Shown here: piece after piece, positions 2,017 to 40,485 of the stretch
Numbering within the stretch: the first letter of the stretch is position 1
Layout of the letters: each line of letters starts with the position of its first letter
Assembly (NCBI GenBank): GCA_021414085.1
Contig: JAIOPC010000014.1
Span: 310,001 to 374,000 of the forward strand
DNA: 64,000 bases
Direction of reading: 5' to 3'
Source: Actinomycetes bacterium
GTDB taxonomy: Bacteria; Actinomycetota; Acidimicrobiia; Acidimicrobiales; Ilumatobacteraceae
The notes under the pieces: model-generated
The model's input: the letters and a program-made list of their open reading frames with translations, nothing else
Told to the model about the DNA's origin: nothing
Database searches by the model: none
Made by a program: the position numbers and the translations under genes

Positions 2017-2667
2017 CTAGCTCAGCCAGGCGGCCGCGAGTTCCTCGCGGCGCGCGAACCATTCTTCGGCTGTCATGCCGTAGCGCACGTGGTCTTCCCA
2101 TGTGCCTGCGATTTCGAGGAACCGCTCAGCGATTCCTTCCTCGCGCAGGCCGAGGACTTCCATCACTCGTCGGCTGTTGCGATTGCGCGGCACGATACAG
2201 ATCTCGATGCGATGCAGCCGCAGTTGCTCGAAGGCGAAGCACGCGATCACGACGACGGCCTCGGGCACGTATCGATTGCCTGCCTTTGCGCTGTCGATCC
2301 AATAACCGACGCTTGCGCTTTGGTGTGCACCGCGCACGATGTTGTTGAGGTTGATCTCGCCCGCGAGCGCGGTTCCGACAAACAACCCGAAGCCGGCCGC
2401 CAACCCCAGTTGTCGTTCGCGATCGCGCGCTATGCAACGGGCGGCAAAGGTTTCGCGATCGCGGGCCGGGTCGAGCTGGTGTTCCGGGCGCATCGGTTCC
2501 CACGGACGCAGCCAGTCCTCGTTGCGAATTCGGACCTCGCTCCAGGCAGGCCAGTCGCTCGCCGCCAACTGAGTCAGCGTCACCCGTCGCCCGCGAAGTT
2601 GCGTTGGGCTGTTCGCGGGCATCGACGGATGCCCCCAGTGCCCTCGCTGCCCGCTGACCCTGCTCAT
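2017..2667 (-). CDS. GNAT acetyltransferase, RimJ/RimL type
   Basis: A 216-residue N-acetyltransferase of the RimJ/RimL type, which transfers acetyl from acetyl-CoA to an amine such as a protein N-terminus. The N-terminal strand motif (RGRRVTLTQL) is followed by the central GEINLNNIVRG and SVGYWID segments. The late motif PRNRNSRRVMEVLGLREEGIAERFLEI (quoted only as a region, about residues 160-186) is the usual RimJ acetyl-CoA and substrate part. I chose the ATG at 2667 because it overlaps the upstream stop as ATGA, implying translational coupling. An ATG at 2622 is the alternative. It is the last gene of a run with the Ppx-like and MobA-DUF501 genes. Confidence 0.8.
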   Translation of the reverse strand: MSRVSGQRGHWGHPSMPANSPTQLRGRRVTLTQLAASDWPAWSEVRIRNEDWLRPWEPMRPEHQLDPARDRETFAARCIARDRERQLGLAAGFGLFVGTALAGEINLNNIVRGAHQSASVGYWIDSAKAGNRYVPEAVVVIACFAFEQLRLHRIEICIVPRNRNSRRVMEVLGLREEGIAERFLEIAGTWEDHVRYGMTAEEWFARREELAAAWLS

Positions 2668-3122
2668 CCGTTCAAGATAACCATCGGCGCATGCAGCGCG
2701 CGCAGCACCGCGACGATGGCGCAGGACACGCCCAGTACCTGGTGTACCTCGGGCGTCGGCAGCCCAGGGTTGCGGGCACGATCGACCTTCGATTCGGTTG
2801 CAAGAGTGCGGAAGACCTCCTCGGCCGCTTCGCGCGTCAGCGTGAACGGATGCTGCGCAGCTCCGCCGACTTCGACGGCGGCGATGGTGGCGAGTCCGAC
2901 ACCGGTGCACTCGATGCGATCCGACACCGCGGCCGAAGGGATCTCGCGGATCACATCCTCGATGTGGTCGATCACTAGCCCGATCGCGTTGATCAGGTCT
3001 TCTGGCAGTGGAGGGTCGCCGGTGATCATCGCCGCCAGCGTGTCGACACCAACCGGCACCGTGTACGACGCGCCGTCGCTGCTGAACACGATCTCGCGCG
3101 TGCCAAACGTGATGCTCAACAT
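2664..3122 (-). CDS. Half-length Ppx/GppA-like protein (C-terminal lobe only)
   Basis: 152 residues that resemble the second lobe of the exopolyphosphatase/pppGpp phosphatase (Ppx/GppA) actin-like fold. They have a strand-rich start (MLSITFGTREIVFSS) where a DIGGGSxE loop is expected, then VPVGVDTLAAM, a TGVGLATIAAVEVG segment and the closing ERA..PGLP..VLGVSCAIVAVLRAL-like pattern. Full-length family members exceed 300 residues. The first lobe is absent and the phosphate-binding DIGGGS motif is not preserved, so activity is doubtful. Family gene order (DUF501 then ppx in many Actinobacteria) supports the identification. Its ATG lies inside the last codons of the upstream gene, a 7-base overlap. 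Confidence 0.6.
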   Translation of the reverse strand: MLSITFGTREIVFSSDGASYTVPVGVDTLAAMITGDPPLPEDLINAIGLVIDHIEDVIREIPSAAVSDRIECTGVGLATIAAVEVGGAAQHPFTLTREAAEEVFRTLATESKVDRARNPGLPTPEVHQVLGVSCAIVAVLRALHAPMVILNG

Positions 3123-4093
3123 TGCGCCGCCAATCGTGCCGCCACCCAACGACCAACAGGGTCGTCGCCGCCGGCGAGGTGGTACGCGTAGTGCGCGTGT
3201 AAACACTTCACGCCTTGGCGCGTTCCTGCGACACCACCACTTGGGCGAGGGCCGACGTAGTCGCGCGGTAGTCGAGCATCGCGCTCAACCGCGTAGCGCG
3301 AGTGAGCGGCTGCAAGTTCTGCGGCGTCAACCTCAGCTTCCGCTGCTCGAACTCCGCCGCCGGCTTCCAGCCTGCTGACATCGCGCAACGCCTGCTTCCC
3401 CGCGAGCCAGTACAGCGTTGGCATCGGCCGGCCATTTCTCATCAGCGGAGCATTGCGCAGCACGACTGGTTCGCCCTGTTCGTCGCGGACAGCAATTTCG
3501 AAATCGCCTTCCGGTTGGCGACCGAGGAGCTCGGCGACTTGGATCAGATCGTTCAGCGTGTCGATGTCGGCCGCTGAACCTTCGCACGCGACACGGTGCA
3601 CTATGTCGGGTTGACCCCGAATCAATCCACGCGCGCCGTCGTCGCCGCTGGCGGGAAGCATCGACCACGTTTCGCGAGCGAGTCGCACGGGATGCGGACC
3701 CGGTTTGCCGTCGTAGGTCGCGACGACGATCTGATACTCGGCGGGTGCGTCGGTCACGGTGCGCCATGCACTACTAGGGACTTGCGGTTGGTCGGCGAGA
3801 CCAATGGTCAGCGAGTCGGCATCCGTGTCGCGGGCAGCGGCGACGGCACACATCAGCGACGTTGCCTGGCCGTCGGCCCAGTGCCGGTTTCGCACTTCGA
3901 TGATGCCAGCGGGCAGATCGAGCTCGATCGCGCCGGTGACGACGATCAGCGGGGCGAGTTCGGCTTCGACCATCGCTGCCAAGGCCCACTCCCACACCGG
4001 CCGGCCGTCCAGCGGAGCAAGCAGTTTGTGCGACGCGCCATCGAATCGGGAACCGCCGCCGGCAGCAAGCAACGCAGCAGCCCGAATTGCCAT
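3116..4093 (-). CDS. MobA-like nucleotidyltransferase fused to DUF501
   Basis: 325 residues in one frame with two domains. Residues 1 to about 190 are a MobA/MocA-like NTP transferase with the nucleotide-binding LLAAGGGSRF loop, KLLAPLDGRP, IGLADQPQV and the closing GARGLIR and DIDTLNDL motifs. This family attaches CMP or GMP to molybdopterin. Residues from about 195 on are DUF501, with PTLYWLAG, VSRLEAGG and GVKCLHAH. DUF501 is normally a stand-alone gene between ftsB and ppx. The junction has almost no linker. The ATG at 4093 is supported by a TACGCT element 6 bases upstream. The Ppx-like gene overlaps its 3' end. Confidence 0.8.
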   Translation of the reverse strand: MAIRAAALLAAGGGSRFDGASHKLLAPLDGRPVWEWALAAMVEAELAPLIVVTGAIELDLPAGIIEVRNRHWADGQATSLMCAVAAARDTDADSLTIGLADQPQVPSSAWRTVTDAPAEYQIVVATYDGKPGPHPVRLARETWSMLPASGDDGARGLIRGQPDIVHRVACEGSAADIDTLNDLIQVAELLGRQPEGDFEIAVRDEQGEPVVLRNAPLMRNGRPMPTLYWLAGKQALRDVSRLEAGGGVRAAEAEVDAAELAAAHSRYAVERDARLPRDYVGPRPSGGVAGTRQGVKCLHAHYAYHLAGGDDPVGRWVAARLAAQC

Positions 4094-4152: not shown

Positions 4153-4842
4153 ATGACGATGCGCAGGCGAGTGCAGGCGACGGTTGTCGCAGCGGCGATG
4201 CTGCTGGGTGCGGTCCCGTTCGCCGATCTCGCAAGCGCGTCAGTCAGCGTTTCGCCGATGCCGGCGCATCGTGTTATTGGCCCGGATCCGTTGGCGCAGA
4301 CAGCGGCAGATGCGCTCGATGCGTGGGAGTTGTACAACACGGTGGGTGCTTGGACAGGCAAGCCCACCGAAGTGCAGGTGGCGATTTTCGCAGATTTCGT
4401 TCGGCTCCGCGACCAAGTAGCAGCTGAAGCGGCGACGCGACTAGGCATCGATCCGCTGCGAATGCAGGCAGCATGGATTGCCGCTGATCGGATACATCAG
4501 CTCGCCGTGCTGTCGGCATTCACTCAGCTCGGAGTTCCATACGGCCACTTCGCGCGCACGGCGGGGGTTGGTTTCGATTGCTCGGGCATCACGTCGTGGG
4601 CGTGGGAGCAGGCTGGGTTCGAGATTCCCCGCGGCGCGAAGTGGCAGATCGTCAGCGCCACCGAGGTGACAGCCGAGACCGCGCAGGCCGGCGACCTCAT
4701 CTTCTACCCGACGCACGTGATGATGTACCTCGGCGTCGACCTCGCCATTCTCCACTCGCCCAACCGCAAGTCGACTGTGCATCTCTCAAACGTATGGAAG
4801 CGCAAGATCCCGAAGCTGCAGTGGGGCAATCCCCTCGGGTGA
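4153..4842 (+). CDS. Secreted NlpC/P60 (C40) peptidoglycan hydrolase
   Basis: 229 residues. A signal peptide (basic MTMRRR, a hydrophobic core, cleavage near DLASAS at about residue 30) leads to a helical linker and a C-terminal NlpC/P60 domain. The catalytic Cys is C143 in GFDCSG, the His is H188 in PTHVMMYLG, and H201 in LHSP is a likely third polar residue. This family cleaves D-Glu-mDAP-type cross-link peptides in the cell wall. The ATG at 4153 is used, and the one at 4159 is equally possible. The gene ends 9 bases from the convergent stop of the ECF-associated membrane protein. Confidence 0.85.
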   Translation: MTMRRRVQATVVAAAMLLGAVPFADLASASVSVSPMPAHRVIGPDPLAQTAADALDAWELYNTVGAWTGKPTEVQVAIFADFVRLRDQVAAEAATRLGIDPLRMQAAWIAADRIHQLAVLSAFTQLGVPYGHFARTAGVGFDCSGITSWAWEQAGFEIPRGAKWQIVSATEVTAETAQAGDLIFYPTHVMMYLGVDLAILHSPNRKSTVHLSNVWKRKIPKLQWGNPLG

Positions 4843-10967: not shown

Positions 10968-11783
10968 CTAGGTGTGGATTGGGCCGGCTCCGTCTCTTAG
11001 TGATGGGGCTGAGCGACCGGTTCGGTTGGAGATGATCTCGGCGCAGATGGAGACGGCGGTCTCCTCGGGTGTGCGCGCACCTAGATCGAGACCGATCGGT
11101 GCCATCAAACGATTCAGAGCGGCCGTGTCCGTAACACCCGACGCAGCAAGCCGCTCGAGTCGTTTGGCGTGGGTGCCGCGACTTCCCATCACGCCGATGT
11201 AGCCGACGTTGGTGGCCAAGGCTGCGGTGATCGCCGGCACGTCGAACTTTGTGTCGTGCGTAAGGATGCACACTGCGTCGCGCTTGCCCAGGCTGTGCCC
11301 GCGCTCGGCGAAGACCGGTTGCGGCCACGTGACGATCACCTCGTCGGCCATCGGAAACCGACGACGCGTGGCAAAGGTCTCGCGCGCGTCGCACACCGTC
11401 ACGCGATACCCGAGCACCTTCGCAACGCGCGCAAGTGCGGCGGTGAAATCGACCGCACCGAAGATCCACATTTGCGGCGGCGGAGCCCAACTCTCGATAA
11501 ACACCGTGACCTCTGGCGCGCCGAGAAGATCCTCGGGGGTCGTCTCGCCGTTGACGCCGTAGTGACGAACACCACTGCGGGCCGCTTCCAGCTCGGCCGT
11601 TGCGTCGCGCGCGGCAATGCGATCGAGTTCGGAACTGCCCAGCGATCCGATCGGCGCGGTGCCCGGGCTGACGAGCAGCTTGCGACCGACCGCGCCCGCG
11701 ACACCTGTTGCATCGATGATCGTCACCATCGCGACTGGTCGCCCAGCGCGCAGATGTGCTGACAACGTTTCGAACAGACTCAT
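10968..11783 (-). CDS. XdhC-family protein (molybdoenzyme maturation), Rossmann type
   Basis: 271 residues. An N-terminal XdhC/CoxI-like module (about 1-95, GRPVAMVTIIDATG) precedes the XdhC Rossmann domain (about 105-265, MWIFGAVDFTAALARVAK, VTVCDARETFA, HDTKFDVPAI, YIGVMGSRGTHAKR). XdhC binds the sulfurated molybdenum cofactor and delivers it to xanthine dehydrogenase-type hydroxylases. It is the last gene of the operon and starts 7 bases after the short XdhC gene. The 152 bases beyond its stop hold only a small inverted repeat at 10911-10928. Confidence 0.85.
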   Translation of the reverse strand: MSLFETLSAHLRAGRPVAMVTIIDATGVAGAVGRKLLVSPGTAPIGSLGSSELDRIAARDATAELEAARSGVRHYGVNGETTPEDLLGAPEVTVFIESWAPPPQMWIFGAVDFTAALARVAKVLGYRVTVCDARETFATRRRFPMADEVIVTWPQPVFAERGHSLGKRDAVCILTHDTKFDVPAITAALATNVGYIGVMGSRGTHAKRLERLAASGVTDTAALNRLMAPIGLDLGARTPEETAVSICAEIISNRTGRSAPSLRDGAGPIHT

Positions 11784-11790
11784 CCGGGCA

Positions 11791-12108
11791 TCACCAATCG
11801 AGTGGTTCGATGAAGAGCCGGATGGTGCCACCGCACGTCAATCCGACAGCAAACGCTTCGTCGTCGCTGTAGCCGAAGGTCACCACCCGAGGCGATGCTT
11901 CGCCGCGCAAGATTGAAAGCGCCTCACCGACGACTGCACCCTCGACGCAGCCACCGCTGACGCTGCCGGAGACCTCGCCGTGATCGTTGACGGCCATCGC
12001 GGCGCCCGGCTCTCGCGGGCCCGAACCTTCGATGTCGACAACACGTGCGACCGCCACCCGCGACCCCGCCGCCAGCCAGCGATCGATGTCGTCGAGCAAT
12101 TCCTTCAT
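11791..12108 (-). CDS. Short XdhC/CoxI N-terminal-domain protein
   Basis: 105 residues that form only the XdhC/CoxI N-terminal domain: VAVARVVDIEGSGPREPGAAM, SVSGGCVEGAVV and FGYSDDEAFAVGLTCGG with the conserved Cys pair region. The larger XdhC gene follows directly and has its own copy of this domain, so the pair probably acts together in loading molybdenum cofactor. The ATG overlaps the stop of the CoxE-like gene as ATGA. Confidence 0.8.
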   Translation of the reverse strand: MKELLDDIDRWLAAGSRVAVARVVDIEGSGPREPGAAMAVNDHGEVSGSVSGGCVEGAVVGEALSILRGEASPRVVTFGYSDDEAFAVGLTCGGTIRLFIEPLDW

Positions 12109-13244
12109 GCGGAGGCGGCCAGCTTGCGGCGGTCGCGAACCGATGCACCGGAGATCACCTGCGACAGCTCTTCCATCGCAGCAAGGCTATGGCCCTCAAC
12201 AAAGGCATCGACGTAGGGGAGCGCGGCTGCCATACCGCGCGCCAGCGGGGCGTAGCCGGGGGTGACTTTCAGTGGGTTGACCCACACCGTTTGATAGCTG
12301 ATGCGCTGCAGGCGTTGCATCTGTTCCGCCAGCACCTCTGGGCCACCGCGATCCCAGCCGTCGCTGAGGATCACAACGATTGCCCCGCGCGCCATGCCGC
12401 GCACGCCCCAGTCGTCGTTGAACTTGCGAAGGCACTCGCCCAAGCGAGTGCCTCCGCTCCAATCCTGCACACGGCGGCTGGCTTGCGCGAGCGCTAGGTC
12501 GGGATCGCGACTGTTCAGCTCCTTCGTCATGCGGGTAAGGCGAGTGCCGATCGCGAACGCCTCAACTCGTTGTCGGCCCGACACGGCGGCGTGCACGAAG
12601 CGCAACATCGCTCGCGCGTACGGCTCCATTGACCCCGAAATGTCGAGCAGCAAGACCAAGCGGCGCAGACGTTCGCCTGGCTCGCGCCACTGTCGGCGAA
12701 TCGGCTCGCCACCCGCACCCAGTGACGCGCGCAGCGTTGCGTGCAGATCCGGCCGTTGCCCGCGTCGCGACGAGTGGTACCGGAACGACCGCCGCGGTGG
12801 CCCGATGAACTTCAGGCGCGCCATCATCTCCTGTGCCGCGCGCAGTTCTTCTTCGGTGTAGGCCGCAAAGTCCTTATCGCGCAGTGTCTCCACAGTCGAG
12901 AACCGCAATGCCAACGGCGTGTCGTCAGGACTGCGCTCGGCTTCGTCGCCCAACTCGTCGTCGCCCGACTCGTTGTCGACTGCGATCTGAAACTCGACGA
13001 GTTCGGTATCCAGTACCACGCCATCCGCCGATTCCCAGAACGCGGTGAATGCCCGGTCGTACAACCCGATGTCCTCCGGGTTACGCACCAACGTGGCGCG
13101 GCCAGCCCAATACACCGAGTCGCGGTGATCAATGCCAACCAACCCGAGCGCATCGACGAACGCGAGCACACTCCCCATCGGGATTCGCAAGCCAGCACCG
13201 CGCAGGATGCGACCGAATGCCACGGCCATGCGCTCTGCGCTCAT
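12105..13244 (-). CDS. VWA-domain CoxE-like protein
   Basis: 379 residues. The N-terminal half is acidic in the middle, followed by a von Willebrand A domain whose metal-ion site begins LLLDISGSM (DxSxS). Further VWA elements are SGGTRLGECLRKF and VVILSDGWDRGG. CoxE proteins work with a MoxR ATPase to mature molybdenum hydroxylases, in the carboxydotrophic model by processing the Cu/Mo site of CO dehydrogenase. The gene overlaps its neighbours at both ends by 4 bases, implying tight coupling with the ATPase and XdhC genes. Confidence 0.85.
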   Translation of the reverse strand: MSAERMAVAFGRILRGAGLRIPMGSVLAFVDALGLVGIDHRDSVYWAGRATLVRNPEDIGLYDRAFTAFWESADGVVLDTELVEFQIAVDNESGDDELGDEAERSPDDTPLALRFSTVETLRDKDFAAYTEEELRAAQEMMARLKFIGPPRRSFRYHSSRRGQRPDLHATLRASLGAGGEPIRRQWREPGERLRRLVLLLDISGSMEPYARAMLRFVHAAVSGRQRVEAFAIGTRLTRMTKELNSRDPDLALAQASRRVQDWSGGTRLGECLRKFNDDWGVRGMARGAIVVILSDGWDRGGPEVLAEQMQRLQRISYQTVWVNPLKVTPGYAPLARGMAAALPYVDAFVEGHSLAAMEELSQVISGASVRDRRKLAASA

Positions 13245-14152
13245 GCGCGTTCGAAGGCCTGGCTCACCAACTCGTGAATGCCGTGTTGGCGCGTGCGTTG
13301 CAAATCCTCGCGGTACTTCAAGACCGTTCCGAGGGTGGAGTTGACCACCGCTTCATCGAGCTCGCTGCACCCCAACTTGGTGAGCGCCTGTGCCCAGTCG
13401 ATCGTTTCGGCCACGCCCGGCGGCTTGTACAGATGCAGTTCGCGCATGGCCTCGACCGCTGCGGCGACTTGACGTGCCAACCGGTCGAGCGCATGCGGCA
13501 CCCGCAGCTTGACGATGCGAACCTCGCGTTCGAAATCGGGATGCTCGATCCAGTGGTACAGACAACGGCGCTTAAGCGCATCGTGAACATCGCGCGTCCG
13601 GTTGGACGTCAACACCACCAGTGGAGGTTGCTCCGCAACGAAGACGCCGAGCTCGGGCACGGTGATCTGGAAGTCGGAGAGCACCTCCAACAGATACGCC
13701 TCGAACTCGTCGTCGGCGCGATCGACCTCGTCGATCAGCAGCACCGGCGGGGTGTCGCCGACGTGACTGATCGCGGATAGCAGCGCGCGACGCACAAGGA
13801 ATCGCTCGTGGTACAGCTGCTGCTCGAGGGCGCTGGTGCTAATGCCCTGCGATTCGCCGGTGGCCTCGGCCGCGCGCAAGTGCAGAAGTTGGCGGCTGTA
13901 GTCCCAGTCGTAGACCGCCTGTGAAACATCGATGCCTTCGTAGCACTGCAGGCGAATCAGCTCGCCGCCGGTCCAGCGACTGAGCACCTTGGCCACTTCG
14001 GTCTTGCCGACGCCGGCCTCTCCCTCCAGCAGCAATGGCCGGTGCAGCGCCATCGACAGAAAGACAGCAGTGGCCAAACCCTCGTCAGGTATATAGCCAT
14101 GCGCGCCAAAGGCTTTGGCGACTTCGTCGGGCGAGATTGGCTGCATTCCCAT
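13241..14152 (-). CDS. MoxR-family AAA+ ATPase (CoxD-like)
   Basis: 303 residues from ATG 14152. Walker A is LLEGEAGVGKTEVA, Walker B is PPVLLIDEVDRADDE, sensor 1 is VVLTSNRTRDVHDALKRRC, and the MoxR lid helices follow. MoxR ATPases paired with a VWA protein remodel or insert metal sites in client enzymes. With CoxE and XdhC downstream this is a CoxDEF-type maturation set. An ATG at 14146 is also possible. A TAGCCT element sits 9 bases upstream. Confidence 0.85.
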   Translation of the reverse strand: MGMQPISPDEVAKAFGAHGYIPDEGLATAVFLSMALHRPLLLEGEAGVGKTEVAKVLSRWTGGELIRLQCYEGIDVSQAVYDWDYSRQLLHLRAAEATGESQGISTSALEQQLYHERFLVRRALLSAISHVGDTPPVLLIDEVDRADDEFEAYLLEVLSDFQITVPELGVFVAEQPPLVVLTSNRTRDVHDALKRRCLYHWIEHPDFEREVRIVKLRVPHALDRLARQVAAAVEAMRELHLYKPPGVAETIDWAQALTKLGCSELDEAVVNSTLGTVLKYREDLQRTRQHGIHELVSQAFERA

Positions 14153-14161
14153 CAGCAACCC

Positions 14162-14167
14162 AGGCTA
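14162..14167 (-). promoter_or_regulatory. -10 element, CoxD-CoxE-XdhC operon
   Basis: TAGCCT on the minus strand, 9 bases before ATG 14152. It would serve all four genes of the operon. Confidence 0.4.
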
Positions 14168-37664: not shown

Positions 37665-37670
37665 ACTCTA
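37665..37670 (-). promoter_or_regulatory. -10 element, SDR pair
   Basis: TAGAGT on the minus strand, 8 bases before GTG 37656. Its first three bases are the ftsB stop codon, so the promoter lies partly inside the preceding gene. Confidence 0.45.
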
Positions 37671-38342
37671 GGGCTTCGCTGCGTCAGCCGATCGAACAGC
37701 GACGATCTTCGCGATCGTGTCGTATGGCCAGCCTGATGGCAGCGTCGCTGGGGCTTCCGGTGCGGGCAGCATCGTGTAGCGAATCTCGCCCTGCTGCACA
37801 TACCCGATCTCTTCGCGCGCCGCTTGCTCGATGCCCTCGGGCGTTTGCAATTGCTGGACCTCGTTGGCGAGATCGGCGTTGGCGTCTTGCAACGCCGCGA
37901 GCTGATCGTCCTTGTGGTCGAGATCGTCTTGTTGGCGCAGCCAAGCCTGCACTGGCAAGACAAACAGCGCCGCGACGAAGGCGGCCGTAATGACGCCGGC
38001 GCCGATTCCGATGATGCGCCGCTTGCCGCCGCCACGGACGAGCTGTTTCTCGACAGGGATTGGTCGTGTGAAGTCGGCAAAGCGGCTGTCGTCGTTGCGC
38101 GACGTGCCTGCGCGCGGAGCCTTGCGACTGCTCTTGCTTTTGCTGTTGCTTGGCGCCTGCCTGGGCGCGCTTTTCCCTTGGCGCTTGGCCGGGGGTCGAC
38201 TACCCGCTCTGCCGCTCGCTTTCGCTCCAGTCGATCGTGAGCCGCTCGATTTCGCGCCGGTGGGTTTCACGCCATGCGTGCGCGTGCGCGAGCCCGCCTT
38301 GGGGCGCGGAATCGCTGAAGTCTTGTGGCCGCCGGAACTCAC
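37668..38342 (-). CDS. ftsB: FtsB/DivIC-family divisome protein
   Basis: 224 residues. A long, basic, Ser/Lys/Arg-rich cytoplasmic N-terminus (about 1-100) precedes one membrane segment (about 110-130, IGIGAGVITAAFVAALFVL) and a coiled coil (about 133-167, DDQLAALQDANADLANEVQQL). The septum-formation-initiator end (GIEQAAREEIGYVQQGE) is present. It bridges divisome proteins in the periplasm-facing space. Location just after eno is the usual actinobacterial order. It has a GTG start. Confidence 0.88.
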   Translation of the reverse strand: MSSGGHKTSAIPRPKAGSRTRTHGVKPTGAKSSGSRSTGAKASGRAGSRPPAKRQGKSAPRQAPSNSKSKSSRKAPRAGTSRNDDSRFADFTRPIPVEKQLVRGGGKRRIIGIGAGVITAAFVAALFVLPVQAWLRQQDDLDHKDDQLAALQDANADLANEVQQLQTPEGIEQAAREEIGYVQQGEIRYTMLPAPEAPATLPSGWPYDTIAKIVAVRSADAAKP

Positions 38343-38378
38343 TTGCTTATTCTCGCAGCGTCGGCCGCGCGAGTCACG

Positions 38379-40485
<2,107 letters not shown>

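Follow-up and report, generated by a model that had tools for sequence, protein, structure and literature searches.

In Actinobacteria, members of the DUF501 family, which also occurs in Thermotoga maritima, are encoded near ftsB and a gene of the Ppx family, as in Corynebacterium glutamicum (cgp_1113) and in Mycobacterium tuberculosis, where Rv1026 is, going by the gene numbers, the neighbor of Rv1025. Two papers treat DUF501 as a domain of unknown function (PMC10166564; PMC9846249), one of them describing it as essential in Corynebacterium diphtheriae, C. glutamicum, and M. tuberculosis (PMC10166564) and the other as fused to FtsB in Mycobacterium smegmatis (PMC9846249). According to a third paper, Rv1026 has no detectable exopolyphosphatase activity, has modest ATPase activity, and is required for optimal growth of M. 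tuberculosis (PMC3411833). Here, we analyze a DUF501 locus in a 64,000-nucleotide stretch of an Ilumatobacteraceae genome (GenBank assembly GCA_021414085.1, contig JAIOPC010000014.1, positions 310,001–374,000), which we call the window and number from its first nucleotide. Unlike in the actinobacterial neighborhood, DUF501 in the window is fused to a MocA-like nucleotidyltransferase domain and lies far from ftsB, and the adjacent Ppx relative consists of lobe II only. As in M. smegmatis, DUF501 is joined to the product of its upstream neighbor, although the partner described there is FtsB (PMC9846249) and the partner here is MocA-like. We think it likely that the fusion is a positional consequence of the deletion of an intervening coxG gene, and that the half-length Ppx is an older, selectively maintained lobe II that forms a non-catalytic module with DUF501.

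The fusion gene occupies positions 3116–4093 on the minus strand as one unbroken open reading frame (ORF) of 325 codons, with a MocA-like part (approximately residues 1–184) followed by DUF501 (approximately residues 185–325). The first-pass annotation of this DNA had proposed a linker-free fusion of DUF501 to a nucleotidyltransferase-like domain, and both Pfam matches bear this out. Residues 6–161 match NTP_transf_3 with 81 bits (cut-off 27) over positions 1–157 of the 160-position profile, making the domain full length, and residues 201–318 match DUF501 (PF04417) with 84 bits (cut-off 23.8). Where a stand-alone MocA relative, taken as an example, ends in DVDTLEDLERWNR followed by a stop codon and a DUF501 relative starts with RVTELLGR, the window reads DIDTLNDLIQVAELLGR, so that the junction costs either partner just a few residues; judged from their sequences, both domains look whole. 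Since the window gene contains no in-frame ATG, GTG, or TTG between residues 165 and 211, DUF501 would be made within the fusion unless a rarer start codon is used. In G001, a second genome of the genus, residue 185 of the corresponding fusion is encoded by an in-frame ATG. The genome from which the window derives (G000) encodes a single DUF501, and this copy is one of 65 Acidimicrobiia rows that share 35 invariant columns. The predicted structure of the DUF501 part (3119–3547, minus strand) is confident, with a predicted local distance difference test score (pLDDT) of 92.9. Comparison of this model with the PDB yielded no chain at E ≤ 0.001, with Z scores below 2 for all 179 chains, and the DUF501 profile had no match at E ≤ 1 among PDB sequences; from this lack of a match, neither novelty of the fold nor a function can be concluded.

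The N-terminal domain had been annotated as MobA-like. An assignment to the molybdopterin-type nucleotidyltransferases agrees with our results, but its nearest model is that of MocA: among NCBI models, TIGR03310 (MocA, molybdenum cofactor cytidylyltransferase) scores 70.3 bits, PucB 64, and TIGR02665 (MobA) 14, with both the MocA and MobA scores below the curated cut-offs. As the MocA equivalog cut-off of 186.45 bits is also missed by the MocA-like proteins of three relatives (79–84 bits), we use the label MocA-like only. Like MocA, the window protein is encoded together with XdhC and Cox maturation genes; unlike MocA proper, it falls below the curated cut-off and bears a C-terminal DUF501. 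The window genome has nine NTP_transf_3 matches, and the three that we inspected are the fusion, one MobA-type protein, and one GlmU-like protein, the last of these named by reading. Since the genome retains three matches to the molybdenum hydroxylase family MoCoBD_1 and one to XdhC_C, a MocA would still be useful to it.

Comparison with relatives suggests how the two domains came together. The common order in Acidimicrobiia is eno-ftsB-[coxD-coxE-xdhC-mocA-coxG]-DUF501-ppx, the eno-ftsB part of which was seen in several contigs. Upstream of mocA, the genes of relatives belong to the Pfam families AAA, VWA_CoxE, and XdhC, and the gene that separates mocA from DUF501 is COXG by Pfam in two relatives (80.5 and 61 bits); ftsB, also considered for this intervening position, was dropped on the basis of the Pfam result. 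These families thus appear in the order of the cox maturation genes coxD-coxE-coxF-coxG. In the window, phmmer finds coxD, coxE, and xdhC in the order and on the strand seen in relatives, and no coxG. Because these genes lie on the same strand, the window locus resembles the common one with insertions and minus coxG. In contrast to the cox maturation cluster, the entire window genome is without coxG, as no PF06240 match was found in it at E ≤ 0.001. Going by gene content, CO oxidation, if it existed in this lineage, may have been abandoned, with other molybdenum hydroxylases being retained.

The association of the fusion with coxG loss is consistent across the loci that we compared. We collected 109 loci with DUF501 (101 distinct rows), leaving aside L001, a copy of L082. 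In most, mocA-like and DUF501 genes are separate, mostly 650–920 bp apart: 81 loci have them separated with coxG between, 11 are fused without coxG, seven are adjacent but unfused (L002, L003, L015, L077, L078, L110, and L095), and 10, some of them at contig ends, have no mocA match. As adjacent means a gap of less than 250 bp, these seven have no whole coxG by definition. It does not follow from the definition that wherever mocA lies at least 250 bp from DUF501 (81 loci), phmmer finds coxG between them; in none of the 11 fused loci is coxG found there. Within the genus of the window, CoxG was found in 11 of 15 genomes and is missing from the two with the fusion (G000 and G001), from G010, and from G012, whose genome is 78% complete. 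In G010, mocA and DUF501 lie 184 bp apart and unfused, and between them (L095:1349–1489) is a 46-codon coxG stump, in which the start of coxG is joined to its C-terminal hydrophobic tail with the COXG domain deleted. As judged from its sequence, this stump is the kind of intermediate that would be expected for a coxG deletion.

The architecture is not confined to the window. G001 encodes the same fusion at 70% identity, and at least nine genomes (the window's included) of 397 sampled evenly from the order contain it, counted as a single alignment spanning both domains. On a tree of MocA plus DUF501, the fusion requires three changes: one in the genus of the window, one in a 16-row clade (support 100) that holds seven fused genomes of family f27, and one in G172, a genome assembled as one contig. 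A single clade uniting the first two groups was rejected in an approximately unbiased test on the rows other than G172 (p-AU 0.0062). The presence of coxG between mocA and DUF501 changes six times on our trees. Outside the genus of the window, the Ppx beside the fusion has both lobes, to the extent covered by the contigs. In the literature searched, which comprised papers readable without subscription, we found no report of a MocA-DUF501 fusion or of a lobe-II-only Ppx. We read the fusion, on the sequence comparisons, as best explained as a positional outcome of coxG deletion, in which case it would be weak evidence for a role of DUF501 in cofactor chemistry.

The second unusual feature of the locus is the gene at 2664–3122 (minus strand), whose ATG at 3122 overlaps the DUF501 stop codon and which encodes a 152-residue protein that we call half-Ppx. 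Its match to Ppx-GppA (PF02541) is 13.6 bits, below the cut-off of 27, and spans positions 137–268 of the 285-position profile. In a 61-row alignment, it aligns to lobe II of full-length neighbors, and lobe I is absent. Full-length rows have two lobes and the DxGTNS, DIGGGS, and AGT motifs, all absent from half-Ppx; the alignment also shows that it is without the C-terminal VSExDxLDG motif and that AGT is missing in its wider form, GxAGT. We take DIGGGS, AGT, and VSExDxLDG to be phosphate-site motifs. Retained are DPPxPEEL, the DH..DV.RE.P stretch, and EDVFRTL.TE...DR..NPGL. Modeled alone, half-Ppx gives a confident AlphaFold2 structure (pLDDT 96, predicted TM score 0.91) that superimposes on residues 148–325 of 3cer_D (Z 20.6, root-mean-square deviation [rmsd] 1.6 Å, 151 residues) and residues 137–294 of Aquifex Ppx, 1t6d (Z 20.3, rmsd 1.5 Å, 146 residues). 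Thus, the lobe II fold of these Ppx/GppA phosphatases is matched across all of half-Ppx, which, unlike them, is without lobe I and the catalytic motifs. Both the alignment and the fold agree with the first-pass description of a second lobe lacking the DIGGGS loop. With starts taken as the start codon nearest the DUF501 stop, the start codon overlaps this stop by four bases in 16 of 25 distinct half rows; as many full-length genes do likewise, lobe I could well have been lost in frame.

We considered whether other genes could account for the missing lobe. Compensation by a full-length Ppx encoded elsewhere finds no support in the genus of the window, as none of its 15 genomes, G000 included, has a visible standard Ppx-GppA (PF02541) match at E ≤ 0.001, a profile that also misses half-Ppx. 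In five other half-Ppx genomes (G018, G020, G021, G027, and G033), there is a standard Ppx match on another contig, partial in G033. The idea that polyphosphate metabolism was lost and Ppx decayed along with it is likewise unsupported, since PPK1 is present in 57 of 61 genomes, including all 15 of the genus. PPK1 of the window genome lies at G000:C14:154095–154622, and every genome of the genus combines PPK1 with the lack of a standard Ppx match.

How old and how widespread is the half-length form? A profile built from 22 half proteins has matches in 33 of 37 genomes of the family, which we assigned as half (25) or full (8) by the distance to DUF501 or, for six genomes, by sequence. The 25 half genomes comprise 12 of the genus of the window and one each of 13 other genera (14 genera in all); the eight full genomes come from eight genera, and in each of them PF02541 is matched at the DUF501 locus. 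The four genomes without a match to the half profile (G007, G011, G012, and G028) are 63–79% complete, and in G007 DUF501 is at a contig end. A tree that includes the lobe II columns groups the 31 half rows with two rows truncated at contig ends in a single 33-row clade (SH-aLRT 100), so that the half state needs one change; the half-Ppx trees were built from rows other than those of G018, G020, G022, G025, G026, and G029. By these comparisons, lobe I loss is older than the fusion and was most likely a single event within the family. The first-pass annotation had also suggested that a deletion joined two genes and truncated ppx. Although a deletion, that of coxG, did join neighbors, one deletion behind both the fusion and half-Ppx can be rejected, as 23 of the 25 half genomes are without the MocA fusion, only G000 and G001 have both, and other fusions stand beside a two-lobed Ppx. 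Among relatives, then, neither feature is peculiar to the window: most have separate mocA and DUF501, others have them fused, and half-Ppx is widespread.

The half-length form is also constrained. We estimated omega, the ratio of nonsynonymous to synonymous divergence, by the Nei-Gojobori method; as synonymous divergence (dS) is near or above 1 in most pairs, making omega unreliable, we relied on three close half-Ppx pairs, in a listing that covers part of the full-length pairs. In these three, omega is 0.13, 0.13, and 0.09 for half-Ppx and 0.06, 0.05, and 0.06 for DUF501. Between the window and G001, the values of 0.25 for half-Ppx, 0.125 for DUF501, and 0.20 for MocA come with dS above 1 and are unreliable. 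Across 22 half-Ppx sequences, 18 columns are invariant. The half-Ppx open frames also resemble one another in length. By these measures, half-Ppx is under purifying selection that appears weaker than that on DUF501. Similar losses, of most or all of lobe I, may have occurred in other families, each represented by one genome in which the protein after DUF501 starts close to where lobe II does: in G040 (family f5, L167), the protein after DUF501 aligns to residues 112–296 of a 303-residue full Ppx and has RIGAQSCEF at the DIGGGS loop, and in G052 (f17, L168), it aligns to residues 92–297, has DIGVGSTKF at this loop, and keeps the C-terminal SESD motif. If these two cases are real, lobe I beside DUF501 would have been lost more than once.

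The association of DUF501 with Ppx is far more regular than that with MocA. Ppx or half-Ppx lies within 1.5 kb and on the same strand as DUF501 in 107 of the 109 loci, the other two of which end within 600 bp. In 14 loci, DUF501 and its Ppx neighbor form a single ORF, with half-Ppx in L095, L108, L099, L100, L069 (Desertimonas flava, L069:5932–6900), and L104 (identical to L069) and with full-length Ppx in L031–L033, L077, L078, L054, and L063, as well as in L030, which is cut by a contig end. A single ORF likewise spans DUF501 and half-Ppx in the half genomes G018, G020, G022, and G026, bringing the count to nine of the 25. Loci with such an uninterrupted frame, with no stop between the two parts, include L069, L095, L099, L100, L108, L161, L162, L163, and L165. 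In G010, DUF501 and half-Ppx form one 366-residue frame by translation, and 473 residues are listed for the DUF501 frame elsewhere. The one-ORF trait changes five or six times on our trees, which contain neither L054 nor L063, with both gains and losses. Given the near-universal adjacency and the repeated fusion, DUF501 is coupled far more strongly to Ppx than to MocA, and its coupling to Ppx has outlasted the loss of the catalytic lobe.

Could the fusion nonetheless reflect a functional link? According to the first-pass annotation, it ties DUF501 to cofactor or nucleotide chemistry, and DUF501 might gain from being tethered to MocA. The occurrence of the fusion in three separate groups, one a clade of 16 rows, and the apparent wholeness of both domains would be consistent with such a benefit. 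We nevertheless regard this explanation as unlikely, because the fusion is confined to loci that have lost coxG from its intervening position, seven loci without a whole coxG have remained adjacent and unfused, and in L054, L063, L111, and L145, DUF501 is a neighbor of ftsB and the retrieved stretch contains no mocA match. Moreover, DUF501 is not faithful to this partner, having been fused more often to Ppx and, as reported, to FtsB in M. smegmatis (PMC9846249). The recurrence of the fusion in G001 at 70% identity, in seven f27 genomes, and in the one-contig genome G172 makes an assembly or binning error near position 3500 very unlikely.

Half-Ppx, too, has alternative explanations. It could be a decaying pseudogene left by truncation, which would explain the score below the Pfam cut-off, the disappearance of three phosphate-site motifs, and an evolution faster than that of DUF501. 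A decaying gene would not be expected to persist in 25 of 37 family genomes, spread over 14 genera, with open frames of much the same length, nor to show the low omega of the close pairs (0.09–0.13), the invariant columns, and the confidently predicted fold, and we find this explanation improbable. It could instead still be an enzyme, for example, a homodimer in which two copies of lobe II create a new active site. Although a fold that is confidently predicted for the protein alone and the 18 invariant columns in 22 rows are compatible with this idea, we find it improbable as well, as DIGGGS, GxAGT, and VSExDxLDG are lost and we found no new site.

Our preferred reading, a positional fusion beside an older lobe II, would proceed as follows. 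Deletion of coxG places mocA directly before DUF501, and the comparisons show that the two have then fused in frame in three groups that do not cluster, the lineage of the window being one. The product would be one polypeptide with two jobs and domains that work independently: the N-terminal domain would serve the three molybdenum hydroxylases encoded in the genome by transferring a nucleotide, CTP as judged by homology, to molybdopterin, and the C-terminal DUF501 would keep a separate housekeeping role. In an older event, the neighboring Ppx was deprived of lobe I and thereby of the usual active site formed by two lobes. Selection has kept lobe II, perhaps because DUF501 requires this lobe of its Ppx branch. 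Together, DUF501 and lobe II most likely form a non-catalytic module, which fits the reported lack of detectable exopolyphosphatase activity of Rv1026 (PMC3411833); it might act in scaffolding or regulation and, via the link to ftsB, possibly in division. Both the tight coupling that survived lobe I loss and the Rv1026 data favor a catalysis-independent role of lobe II.

Several observations weigh against parts of this reading. Trees without the lobe II columns need three or four changes for the half state, although a single half clade, also tested without these columns, is not rejected (p-AU 0.542) and even fits slightly better than the unconstrained quick tree. The rate of evolution of half-Ppx exceeds that of DUF501. 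G041, with adjacent genes at the locus, still has CoxG elsewhere, so that absence at the locus need not mean absence from the genome, and the whole-genome search for CoxG covered genomes other than the fused f27 genomes and G172. The MocA label derives from the best-scoring profile, at 70 bits against a cut-off of 186. As DUF501 and Ppx genes nearly always touch or overlap, their fusions may be positional too. Finally, the modest ATPase activity reported for Rv1026 means that full-length members may still be enzymes (PMC3411833).

The group of bacteria concerned is mostly uncultured. Of the two features, half-Ppx is the more interesting. Tentatively, and with somewhat less than even confidence, we suggest that this branch of Acidimicrobiia, together with the two genomes of other families, represents a natural domain deletion that has left only lobe II, next to DUF501 or fused with it, implying that the conserved, probably essential task of DUF501 and Ppx2 in Actinobacteria is non-catalytic, that lobe II serves DUF501 as a dedicated platform for binding, and that full-length members can either dispense with their phosphatase or ATPase activity or use it for regulation. 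If so, the natural fusions and the half-length partner would suggest which part of the neighboring Ppx is needed, and the vague link of DUF501 to polyphosphate would become a testable binding hypothesis. The mocA fusion, in turn, offers a caution, as repeated gene fusion can mirror mere adjacency after a deletion.

The remaining genes of the locus are spread over the first 40 kb of the window. Divergent from the fusion, at 4153–4842 on the plus strand, is a gene for an NlpC/P60 protein, a homolog of which is likewise divergent upstream of mocA in many relatives. The cox-type genes are all on the minus strand and are given as open frames from stop to stop: the C-terminal (Rossmann) part of XdhC at 10971–11837, which is the sole XdhC_C match in the genome; the XdhC/CoxI N-terminal part at 11794–12186; a CoxE-like VWA protein at 12108–13352; and a CoxD/MoxR-like AAA ATPase at 13244–14164, the last two identified by phmmer and by the Pfam families of their homologs (L004:3212–4360 and L004:2308–3231, respectively). 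As had been noted in the first pass, eno and ftsB lie approximately 34 kb from the fusion, at 37668–39674. Both are on the minus strand and were named by reading their translations: a ftsB/DivIC-like gene (37668–38342), homologs of which adjoin eno in L004, L005, L009, and L042, and the enolase gene eno (38379–39674), which also has homologs in relatives. XdhC at 10971–12186 consists of two overlapping ORFs; many relatives are split alike, and L042 and L019 have a single gene. Five of the public metagenome-assembled genome records that we used (L032, L041, L060, L062, and L072) are titled Bifidobacterium breve or Acidobacteria and fall within Acidimicrobiia on the tree; their titles or bins look wrong.

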